In this document: positions 2,730-8,632 of the stretch, in pieces
Layout: every line of letters begins with the position of its first letter
Position numbering within the stretch: position 1 is the stretch's first letter
Assembly (NCBI GenBank): GCA_024277205.1
Contig: JAJRVP010000011.1
Span: 1 to 52,864, forward strand
Length of the DNA: 52,864 nt
Direction of reading: 5' to 3'
DNA from: an archaeon
GTDB taxonomy: Archaea > Nanobdellota > Nanobdellia > CSSed11-243R1
Program-made: the position numbers and the translations under genes
Notes under the pieces: model-generated
Told to the model about the DNA's origin: nothing
The model's database searches: none
What the model saw: the letters and a program-made list of their open reading frames with translations, nothing else

Positions 2730-2772
<43 letters not shown>

Positions 2773-3162
2773 GACGACTTTACCCCTCTCGCTGAGCAAA
2801 GATTCGAGTCCCACTAACCGAAGTTAGAGGGAGTCTCATCTCCACCCAACTCGAATGGTATGACGGGCGGTGAGTGCAAGGAGCAGGGACATATTCACCG
2901 CGCCATGTTGAAACGCGGTTACTAGGGATTCCGTCTTCACGAGGATGAGTCCCAATCCTCGATCCGAACTGAGCCTCAGTTTAGGAGATTGGCTTCACCT
3001 TTCGGTGTTGCAGCTCATTGACTGAGGCATTGCAGCCCGCGTGTAGCCCAGGGCATTCGGGGCATACTGACCTGACGTCGCCCTCACCTTCCTCCTGCTT
3101 ACGCAGGCAGTCCCACTAGTGTGCTTTCCGACCCGAAGGTGGGAAATAGCAACTAGTAGCGA

Positions 3163-3271
<109 letters not shown>

Positions 3272-3402
3272 ACCTCTCAGCGCTTCAGGTAAGCCCGTTA
3301 GACTGACCTTCATCATGCTGTCGGCCCTGGTGAGATTCCCGGCGTCGAATCCAATTGAACCGCAGGCTTCACCCCTTGTTGTGCTCCCCCGCCTATTCCT
3401 TA

Positions 3403-3436
<34 letters not shown>

Positions 3437-3524
3437 CTGTTTAATGCCTTCGCTTCGGCACTGCACACTGTCGAACAATGTGCAACACCTAACAGGCAGC
3501 GTTTACAGCTGGGACTACCGGGGT

Positions 3525-3571
3525 CTTTAGCACCGTCTTTCCGCACACGCTTTCTTGGAAAGAAAGGGTGT
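3525..3571 (-). other. 47-nt BHB intron in the 790 loop of 16S rRNA
   Basis: TTAG[AT|A]CACC...GGTG-CTAA[AG|A]CCCC; central helix TTAG/CTAA; spliced product GGATTAGATACCCCGGTAGTCC matches the universal 16S sequence. Confidence 0.93.
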
Positions 3572-4336
3572 ATCTAATCCCGTTCGCTCCCCCAGCTTTC
3601 GTCCCTCACCGTCGGACCCGTTCTAGCCAGGCGCCTTCGCCACCGGTGGTCCTCCTAGGATTACAGGATTTTACTCCTACCCCAGGAATACCCCTGGCTT
3701 CTCCCGGTCCCTAGCTTGGCAGTATCTCTGGCTCGCCCATACGTTGAGCGCATGGATTTCACCAAAGACTAACCAAACCGGCTACGGACGCTTTAGGCCC
3801 AATAATAATGATCACCACTTGGGGCGCCGGTATTACCGCGGCTGCTGCCACCGGTCTTGCCCACCCCTTATTCGCCAAGCTGTTTACACTTGGCAAAAGC
3901 CCATGCTTTGCATGAGCACTCGGAGTTGCTCTGTCACCCTTGCGGGCATTGCAGAAGTTTCGCACCTGCTGCACCCCGTAGGGCTAGGACCCTTGTCTCA
4001 GTGTCCTTCTTGGGGCCCTCTCTCTCAAGACCCCTACTGGTTTTAGGTTTGGTGAGCCGTTACCTCACCAACAGCCTGATCAGCCGCAGACCTATCCTCA
4101 GGCGGAACTTAGGAGAAAGCCTAAGCCCTTTTTGGTGTTGGAACATCCCAGTATCCAACACCTATGTGGAATTAGCTCCAGTTTCCCGGAGTTATTCCCC
4201 TCCTGAGGGTAAGTTGTCTACGTGTTACTAAGCCGTTCGCCGCCAGCAGCACCCTGCCAGCTGACTTGCATGGTTTAGCCCAACTCCGAAAGCAGTGATC
4301 TCCAGCAGGATCAACTGGAGTTATGGTCGCTTTCGA

Positions 4337-5686: not shown

Positions 5687-5716
5687 TCTTTCACCATGAT
5701 AATGCGGGGGGAGGGA

Positions 5717-5777
5717 CTTTCAAGCACCCACCAAATCATTTCTTTTGGTGCAGCTTTTCTTTTTAAGAAAAGGTGCT
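5717..5777 (-). other. tRNA-Leu intron 4 (59/60, T loop), 61 nt, class I core
   Basis: TTCA[AA|A]GCACC...GGTGC-t-TGAA[AG|T]CCC; restores TTCAAAT T loop. Confidence 0.88.
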
Positions 5778-5796
5778 TTTGAACCCTCGCGGGCAT

Positions 5797-5827
5797 TGCT
5801 CACCAAAGCACCAAAGGGTACATTAGC
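5797..5827 (-). other. tRNA-Leu intron 3 (variable arm), 31 nt
   Basis: CTTA[GA|G]CTAAtGTACCctttGGTGCtTTGG-TGAG[CA|A]TGCC. Confidence 0.75.
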
Positions 5828-5842
5828 TCTAAGCCACAGGAT

Positions 5843-5891
5843 ATCCACGACCCCTTCTTTTGGTCGAGCTTTTCTTCCAAAGAAAAGGTCG
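5843..5891 (-). other. tRNA-Leu intron 2 (37/38, anticodon loop), 49 nt, class I core
   Basis: CTTAAG|CGACCTTTTCTTTGGAAGAAAAGCTCGACCAAAAGAAGGGGTCGTGGAT|ATCCTG; inner helix CGACC/GGTCG; central helix weak. Confidence 0.8.
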
Positions 5892-5916
5892 CTTAAGTCC
5901 TGCCCCTTGGACCAGA

Positions 5917-5956
5917 TTCCCACACCCACCTTCTTTTTAAAGAAGGCAACGGGTTT
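5917..5956 (-). other. tRNA-Leu intron 1 (15/16, D loop), 40 nt
   Basis: CCCA[AG|A]ACCC...GGGT-g-TGGG[AA|T]; central helix CCCA/TGGG. Confidence 0.85.
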
Positions 5957-6008
5957 CTTGGGTACCCCCGCATTAATAAAAATGTAGTAGAATATGTTAT
6001 TTAAATAT

Positions 6009-6125: not shown

Positions 6126-6227
6126 TTTTTAATCACTTTTTCCAATAAAGGTTGCCTTTAAAATATTTTTGATTAATGCTCCGTCCGGGATTTGAACCCG
6201 GGTCATCGGCTCGAAAGGCCGACATCC

Positions 6228-6261
6228 ATAGCCAACTTGGACATCAGAGATGTCGTCAGCT
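6228..6261 (-). other. tRNA-Glu intron 2 (D loop, about 21/22), 34 nt
   Basis: Removal joins GGTCAA to GGATG and restores D stem/loop; contains GACATC-tct-GATGTC hairpin; BHB relaxed, boundaries approximate. Confidence 0.6.
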
Positions 6262-6270
6262 TTGACCGGA

Positions 6271-6319
6271 ATGTCTCACCTTTTCTTTTGGTGCAACTTT
6301 TCTTTGCAAGAAAAGGTGT
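6271..6319 (-). other. tRNA-Glu intron 1 (15/16, D loop), 49 nt, class I core
   Basis: GTCT[AG|A]CACCTTTTCTT...AAGAAAAGGTG-AGAC[AT|T]CCGG; central helix GTCT/AGAC. Confidence 0.92.
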
Positions 6320-6339
6320 CTAGACTAACGGAGCTTAAA

Positions 6340-7557: not shown

Positions 7558-7599
7558 TTTAATCCCATTAAACAAATAATGGCCCGGCGGAGATTTGAA

Positions 7600-7651
7600 T
7601 TCCGGCAACCCTTTCTTTTGGTACAGCTTTTCTTTCAAAAAGAAAAGGCGT
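7600..7651 (-). other. tRNA-Ile intron 4 (53/54, T arm), 52 nt, class I core
   Basis: CCGG[AG|A]CGCC...GGGTTG-CCGG[AA|T]TCAAAT; restores CGGAG-TTCAAAT-CTCCG. Confidence 0.87.
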
Positions 7652-7667
7652 CTCCGGACCTCTGGTT

Positions 7668-7698
7668 TTCCGAGACTCATGGTAACCCATGAGTGTCA
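7668..7698 (-). other. tRNA-Ile intron 3 (37/38, anticodon loop), 31 nt
   Basis: CTTATA|TGACACTCATGGGTTACCATGAGTCTCGGAA|AACCAG; strong ACTCATGG/CCATGAGT hairpin; central helix weak. Confidence 0.72.
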
Positions 7699-7706
7699 TA
7701 TAAGAC

Positions 7707-7749
7707 TTACGCAACTTTTTGGTCAAGCTTTTTGCTTGCAAAAAGATTG
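7707..7749 (-). other. tRNA-Ile intron 2 (29/30, anticodon stem), 43 nt, class I core
   Basis: GCGC[TG|C]AAtCTTTTT...AAAAAG-TT-GCGT[AA|G]TCTTATA; restores AC stem CTGGT/ACCAG. Confidence 0.82.
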
Positions 7750-7762
7750 CAGCGCTCCAACC

Positions 7763-7815
7763 AGGCTTCGCCCCCAACACCCTTTTCCGTGCACGCTTTT
7801 TTAAAAGGGTGCTTG
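7763..7815 (-). other. tRNA-Ile intron 1 (D loop), 53 nt, class II core
   Basis: GCTT[AA|C]aagCACCCTTTT...AAAAGGGTG...AAGC[CT|G]GTTG; central helix GCTT/AAGC. Confidence 0.82.
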
Positions 7816-7865
7816 TTAAGCTACCGGGCCATACCATAAAAAAGAAGTATAATTCTTTTAAAAGT

Positions 7866-8300: not shown

Positions 8301-8355
8301 AATAATTCTGAAAAATTTATTATTAATAAAGTTAATTAAAGCGCCCGCGGCAGGA

Positions 8356-8421
8356 CTTTCAAGCACCCACGAAAGTTTTCTCTTTCGTGCACGTTTCTCT
8401 TTTTCAAAAGAGAAAGGTGCG
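8356..8421 (-). other. tRNA-Asn intron 3 (59/60, T loop), 66 nt, class II core
   Basis: TTCG[AA|C]GCACC...GGTGC-t-TGAA[AG|T]CCTGC; restores TTCGAAT T loop. Confidence 0.88.
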
Positions 8422-8443
8422 TTCGAACCTGCGACCTACAGCT

Positions 8444-8501
8444 TACAGCCAACCCTTTCTGTTGTTCTTTCCGTGAACGCTTTCTTTGTAAGAAAGGGTT
8501 C
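8444..8501 (-). other. tRNA-Asn intron 2 (37/38), 58 nt, class II core
   Basis: CTGTTA|GAACCCTTTC...GAAAGGGTTGGCTGTA|AGCTGT; inner helix AACCCTTTC/GAAAGGGTT; central helix weak. Confidence 0.78.
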
Positions 8502-8521
8502 TAACAGGCTGCCGCTCTACC

Positions 8522-8576
8522 GCCTCGCCACACACCCTTACTCTTTTCCGTGCAAGCTTTTTCTAAAAGGGTGCGT
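8522..8576 (-). other. tRNA-Asn intron 1 (D loop), 55 nt, class II core
   Basis: gCTC[AA|A]CGCACCC...GGGTGTG...GAG[GC|G]GTA; inner helix CGCACCC/GGGTGTG. Confidence 0.78.
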
Positions 8577-8632
8577 TTGAGCTACGCGGGCACAAAAAGA
8601 AAGAAGTTTTAATTCATTTAAAAGGTTTTCTT

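Follow-up and report, generated by a model that had tools for sequence, protein, structure and literature searches.

BHB introns at non-canonical positions of archaeal tRNA genes were described by Marck and Grosjean (2003) and have since been reviewed (PMC4090602; PMC6379350). In the Thermoproteales, tRNA genes carry multiple and transposed introns, with a maximum of three and an average of 0.84 per gene, and P. calidifontis has 71 introns in 46 tRNA genes (PMC8450103; PMC4033280). According to the authors of tRNAscan-SE, some introns lie so close together that one must be removed first (PMC8450103). Among the Asgard archaea, Atabeyarchaeia and Freyarchaeia have 92-95% of their tRNA genes interrupted, more than half of them with multiple introns (PMC11291895). 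BHB introns also occur in archaeal 16S and 23S rRNA (PMC4496867; PMC6125680). The way in which archaeal tRNA genes acquire introns has yet to be explained, and no vehicle is known for the transposition seen in the Thermoproteales.

The tRNA-Glu(UUC) gene considered here belongs to a tiny, symbiont-like archaeon of the Nanoarchaeia (genome G000, 684 kb, 91.6% complete) and lies in a stretch of 52,864 nucleotides, here called the window. Judged from its sequence and that of its relatives, it is very probably a functional gene whose transcript would undergo two separate excisions, the first intron being a copy of a dispersed and putatively mobile repeat and the second a separate intron. Its parts are as follows.

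6177-6334, minus strand: tRNA-Glu(UUC) gene with two D-loop introns, from the sequence and a splice solver
6320-6334, minus strand: exon 1, GCTCCGTTAGTCTAG, read from 6334 as GCTCCGT, TA, GTCT and AG (acceptor 5' strand, positions 8-9, D-stem 5' strand, A14 G15); unchanged in intronless relatives
6322-6325, minus strand: GTCT, exon strand of the 4-bp central helix of intron 1, pairing with AGAC at 6273-6276
6271-6319, minus strand: intron 1, 49 nt, beginning ACACCTTTTCTT and ending AAGAAAAGGTGAGACAT, a member of the dispersed hairpin family
6277-6318, minus strand: inner helix and loop of intron 1, CACCTTTTCTT (6318-6308) with AAGAAAAGGTG (6287-6277), 11 bp
6273-6276, minus strand: AGAC, intron strand of the central helix of intron 1, from folding
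6262-6270, minus strand: internal exon TCCGGTCAA, 9 nt, holding G18 and G19
6228-6261, minus strand: intron 2, AGCTGACGACATCTCTGATGTCCAAGTTGGCTAT, 34 nt, outside the repeat family, with a homologue at the same site in a tRNA-Gln of genome G005
6228-6261, minus strand: helices of intron 2, namely hairpin GACATC/GATGTC, central GGUC(A)/(U)GGCU and outer UCC/GGA
6177-6227, minus strand: exon 3, GGATGTCGGCCTTTCGAGCCGATGACCCGGGTTCAAATCCCGGACGGAGCA, beginning GGATGTCGGCC, from the D-stem 3' strand through discriminator A

At this locus ARAGORN and Rfam report only a mis-framed gene at 6177-6250, which is the last 74 nt with the wrong acceptor. The splice solver, which was written for this analysis, enumerates the BHB introns that a stretch could contain and rates each spliced product for its fit to a tRNA. 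Run unguided, it ranked the two-intron solution first (82.9 vs 75.1 for the runner-up), and 54 reversed stretches of the genome yielded no solution of 66 or more. Excising both introns restores a standard cloverleaf of 75 nt with fully paired stems (acceptor 7/7, D 4/4, anticodon 5/5, T 5/5) and a D loop identical to that of intronless relatives. An earlier note, made from the sequence alone, had proposed a tRNA-Glu(UUC) at 6177-6334 with two introns in the same D loop, and the solver, its reversed controls and the relatives all agree with it. The intron 1 that it drew at 6271-6319, with a perfect GTCT/AGAC helix and an 11-bp inner helix, is present in every detail on the minus strand, as is the differently folding intron 2 that it placed 9 exon nucleotides downstream. 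Group I and group II introns were considered and rejected, as Rfam models run over the window match tRNA and 16S alone, with no group I or II core, and lengths of 34-49 nt are too short for such a core.

The earlier note overlooked that intron 1 belongs to a repeat family. A search with the tRNA region found many sites in the genome that match strongly, but over intron 1 only; most of them are other interrupted tRNAs, and the intron matches many other tRNA loci at 82-100%. The repeat takes the form of a hairpin (NNACC, pyrimidine tract, loop, purine tract, GCTNN) followed by ACC and then an A/G-rich strand, and in its core NN and N'N' co-vary, with 16 doubly changed cells. A covariance model of the core gave 72 full-length matches at E<0.1 in the 684-kb genome. 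Inside tRNA genes, which cover 1.1% of the genome, there are 43 of these 72 where 0.8 would be expected, 41 of them on the tRNA strand, counts that carry some bias toward tRNA from a model built mainly on tRNA copies. Of the other matches, one is in 16S, two are at or in 23S, one is antisense within RNase P RNA, and the remaining 25 are elsewhere. Across the class, 20 of 188 genomes have matches, among them all six of the family. Copies within rRNA and RNase P RNA genes include the following.

3208-3241 of the window, minus strand: covariance model match inside the 16S rRNA gene (2732-4321), a likely 16S intron
locus L137: copy in 23S rRNA, a probable rRNA intron
G000 C16:17676-17715 (L150): copy antisense within the RNase P RNA gene

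Two further placements were observed. One copy (G000 C10:129078-129114, L149) lies at the start of a probable threonyl-tRNA synthetase gene, flanked on each side by CTTCAATGGCAC, and could be an mRNA intron or a duplicated start. In a genome of another family (G006, L199-L209), the repeat adjoins tRNA 3' ends, between partial duplications of those ends.

The repeat hairpin pairs a pyrimidine arm with a purine arm and includes a C-C mismatch, and the A/G-rich strand that follows it obeys a rule of its own. In class-1 copies (n=108, from several genomes) this strand, after the hairpin and ACC, is the parallel complement of the left arm at 714 of 729 positions, compared with 555 matches to the antiparallel complement, and permutations never attain the observed parallel value. 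Class-2 copies give 185 of 191 in the parallel sense and 73 in the antiparallel sense. Where the arms are asymmetric, the parallel complement is perfect in 12 of 18 and 8 of 13 cases, and the antiparallel complement in none. The third strand is thus the mirror image of the purine arm of the hairpin, and remains so across differing arm sequences. A mirror repeat cannot arise through copying, and therefore a three-stranded structure may be under selection; the mirror strand is a triplex-like signature, pointing to a putative triplex.

From the dispersal of the repeat we infer that it has moved. A tentative proposal, held with somewhat less than even confidence, is that a short non-coding mobile element of the Nanoarchaeia inserts both between genes and into genes for structured RNAs, survives in tRNA and rRNA genes as an EndA-spliced intron, as an archaeal counterpart of introners, and has in this way interrupted nearly the whole tRNA set of a lineage with a simple alpha4-type endonuclease. 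Mobilisation of the REP/RAYT type by a Y1 transposase was rejected on the ground that PF01797 was not found in any of the six family genomes (a control matched in 10 of 14). A target-site duplication had been suspected from the flanking direct repeats AGACA and CGGGA, a pattern that the palindromic exon sequence yields as well, and no pair of empty and filled sites with a clean duplication was proven. The lack of this transposase would also suit an alternative that appears unlikely but carries real weight, in which the hairpin family is non-mobile and represents a conserved cellular RNA signal, for example a hairpin for 3' ends or for processing, which originated several times or was passed between tRNA genes by gene conversion. 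Several copies lie directly at stop codons or at the 3' ends of RNA genes, as expected of such a signal, and the mirror rule, which goes beyond copying, likewise suggests a selected structure. However, near-identical copies stand at the D loop, 37/38, 53/54 and 59/60 of unrelated tRNAs and in 16S and 23S, and gene conversion between orthologous positions cannot explain this. The repeat occurs both as an intron and outside genes of the same genomes, and the lineage has closely related intron-poor and intronless genes, which makes insertion sites directly comparable.

Interruption of the tRNA set is extensive, and copies of the hairpin repeat are often what interrupts a gene. Only nine tRNAs of this genome reach the Rfam cut-off, and at E 1e-5 Rfam finds 7-11 tRNA matches in the five genomes of the two intron-loaded genera, 29 in genome G003 and 23-43 in 16 other class members. 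The solver, which must allow asymmetric inner helices for correct splices of long-arm tRNAs, automatically recovered 29 tRNA genes with 56 introns. Of these genes 27 are interrupted, 18 of them at least twice, and four introns each are found in tRNA-Leu(UAA) and tRNA-Ser(GCU). Three tRNAs assembled by eye also pass the scorer, namely Thr(CGU) with three introns, Tyr(GUA) with two and Leu(UAG) with four, for a resolved total of at least 65 introns in 32 tRNA genes, of which 30 are interrupted by up to four introns per gene. With seven further interrupted genes that are partially resolved, 37 of the 39 tRNA genes seen (~95%) are interrupted. This list is a lower bound, the genome having been covered by searches and selected stretches, and the counts leave out tRNA-Arg(UCG), a Leu tRNA, a CAU tRNA, tRNA-Trp and two contig-end Ser copies. 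By-eye splices of the Arg(UCG), Leu and CAU genes fail the tRNA scorer and were discarded. Three neighbours of tRNA-Glu(UUC) in the window illustrate the pattern.

5703-5971, minus strand: tRNA-Leu(UAA) with four introns of 40, 49, 33 and 61 nt, the third in the variable arm and two of the four family copies; found by the solver, missed by standard tools
7580-7830, minus strand: probable CAU-anticodon tRNA with about four introns, the middle part not placed; overlaps listed ORFs
8342-8591, minus strand: tRNA-Asn(GUU) with three introns (54, 58 and 66 nt); found by the solver

The shortest arrangements are compact. In tRNA-Thr(CGU) (G000 C6, L064) an 11-nt anticodon-stem intron (CGGC AG^A AGTT GCCG AA^T) has a central helix, CGGC/GCCG, that a short loop caps immediately. 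Elsewhere, tRNA-Trp(CCA) (G000 C1, L158) has a C/D-box-like anticodon intron and insertions in the D and T arms, and a Leu tRNA (G000 C10, L156) has the anticodon AAG in place of the usual archaeal GAG, with a 9-nt direct repeat, GTGCCGGAG, flanking its D-loop insertion. About three quarters of the tRNAs in these genomes escape standard searches, and claims of missing tRNAs in such reduced archaea therefore need care.

For tRNA-Glu(UUC) itself, the junctions are fixed by comparison with the intronless orthologue of a relative (G003), the CUC paralogue and two congeners that have an intron at the first site but none at the second. GTCTAG-TCCGGTCAA-GGAT runs uninterrupted both in tRNA-Glu(CUC) of the same genome, which reads GTCTAGTCCGGTCAAGGATG, and in the intronless tRNA-Glu(UUC) of G003, which reads GTCTAGTCCGGTCAAGGATC. 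In G001 and G002, of the same genus, tRNA-Glu(UUC) has introns at the intron-1 site and at 37/38, and the intron-2 site is uninterrupted (TCCGGTCAAGGATG). In G005, from another genus of the family, tRNA-Gln(UUG) contains two D-loop introns of 47 and 33 nt around ATGGTCAA; its intron 2, AGCAGACGACGCGTAAGCGTCCATGTCGGCTAT, is homologous to intron 2 of tRNA-Glu, with one of ten pairs fully (doubly) compensated. In combination, these comparisons support two independent D-loop introns as the right reading.

The same evidence bears on the remaining alternatives. Decay of the locus into a pseudogene, with tRNA-Glu(UUC) supplied by another gene, is highly improbable: a second gene could be absent from an assembly that is 91.6% complete, but this is the sole Glu(UUC) gene found, every stem pairs perfectly, both splice motifs are intact, and another genus has the two-intron layout in its tRNA-Gln, where a change in intron 2 is compensated. 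Nor is there much to commend the removal of a single intron of about 92 nt, from AG to GGATG, with the 9-nt segment intronic, an outcome that the earlier note had named as its refutation. The spacing of the outer cut sites would allow it, but the D loop would lose G18-G19, and the segment is exonic in the intronless orthologue and the CUC paralogue and kept in congeners interrupted at the first site only, which contradicts it. Mis-joining of repeats into tRNA loci, conceivable in a metagenome assembly with two contig ends inside near-identical tRNA-Ser copies, can hardly be credited when separately assembled genomes of the same genus are organised alike at the same sites and excision leaves perfect cloverleaves.

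The motifs of the two introns differ in strength. Intron 1 has a 4-bp central helix and two 3-nt bulges, with predicted cuts inside the bulges at AG^A and AT^T; on folding, GTCT/AGAC has a probability of 0.93-0.96 and 10 of 11 inner pairs exceed 0.98, whatever the context. In intron 2 the central helix GGUC/GGCU includes two G-U pairs, the bulges are AA(A) and AU and the inner helix is weak; the motif is no more stable than a rival helix, AGCUGAC/GUUGGCU, which reaches about 0.6 in the whole precursor and masks the 5' site. In the whole precursor three pairs of the central helix of intron 2 have a probability of about 0.34; once intron 1 is removed, this helix reaches about 0.50, and the outer helix UCC/GGA improves from about 0.49 to 0.78. 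If the intron-2 motif is imposed on the full precursor, the penalty is 0.1 kcal/mol and the intron-1 motif is preserved. A single base belongs to both motifs, as the third bulge base of motif 1 and the first paired base of motif 2. Because the motifs share this nucleotide, simultaneous docking is unlikely, and endonucleases probably act one at a time; in these models both motifs can fold together, and cleavage is probably sequential. An order of splicing imposed by folding was rejected, as neither the change from 0.34 to 0.50 nor the 0.1 kcal/mol supports it. The earlier note's suggestion of ordered or independent splicing in a very small space is thus informative only in part: cuts at motifs that share a base are probably sequential, and folding does not fix their order. 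The 9-nt exon that it considered very tight is real, but it is not extreme in a genome where tRNA-Pro(GGG) and tRNA-Ser(GCU) have 6-nt internal exons (TTCAAA, TTCGAA).

The enzymes for these reactions are encoded in the genome. One EndA gene of 176 aa with both domains is present in G000 (C6:16881-17366), G001 and G003, and neither Pfam domain revealed a second subunit. The nearest full-length match is M. jannaschii EndA (1a79), matched over its full length, and the loop insert of the N. equitans catalytic subunit and of broad-specificity enzymes is lacking, such that by sequence this single EndA looks alpha4-like; G005 has two alpha-like EndA genes. RtcB is also present (E=1.2e-176). Efficient removal of relaxed motifs is reported to need heterotetrameric or epsilon2 enzymes with an extra loop, and the type of EndA seen here to prefer strict motifs (PMC6379350). 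Either an EndA subunit is missing from several genomes that are 89-92% complete, or the alpha4-type enzyme copes, perhaps as most motifs are strict. The system also puts to the test the rule by which many non-canonical introns require an endonuclease with an extra loop or subunit.

Maturation of the transcript would involve two separate rounds of cutting and joining, both in the D loop. Around intron 1, with its textbook central helix, EndA would cut at AG^A and AT^T; around intron 2 it would cut at AA^A and AT^G, where the motif is looser and the 9-nt exon would form one strand of the central and outer helices. Plausibly, the strong intron 1 would leave first. RtcB would join the exons at AG-TCC and CAA-GGA; joined reads would contain AGTCCGGTCAAGGA, and both excisions would produce AGTCCGGTCAAGGATG. 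Intron 1 is one copy of the short repeat that would have spread through tRNA, rRNA and intergenic sites of the lineage, and intron 2 is a different, non-dispersed and probably older intron.

Compared with the non-canonical BHB introns known from archaeal tRNAs, tRNA-Glu(UUC) is alike in its central 4-bp helix, 3-nt bulges, D-loop position and the EndA and RtcB of its genome, and differs in having two introns in one D loop, a 9-nt exon between them and a relaxed intron 2. The Thermoproteales share near-identical introns at different positions of different tRNAs and several introns per gene, but the genome described here belongs to another phylum, reaches four introns per gene against the stated three, has about two per gene compared with 71 in 46 genes in P. 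calidifontis, and has intergenic copies of its repeat. In contrast to the heterotetrameric EndA with a crenarchaeal loop in the Thermoproteales, it has, in an assembly 91.6% complete, one alpha-type, alpha4-like gene without the loop insert. Atabeyarchaeia and Freyarchaeia resemble it in near-complete tRNA interruption but are an unrelated lineage, and a repeat family is not mentioned in the available part of that report (PMC11291895). As with archaeal rRNA BHB introns, copies lie inside the 16S and 23S genes, but this repeat also serves as tRNA introns, and 40-90 nt is too short for a homing endonuclease. In the literature searched, no report was found of interrupted multi-intron tRNAs of this kind in Nanoarchaeia. 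Multi-intron tRNAs with transposed introns were already known, and tRNA-Glu(UUC) by itself belongs to that kind; what is new is the lineage, the intron density of up to four per gene, a repeat common to tRNA, rRNA and intergenic sites, the simple EndA and the mirror-strand rule.
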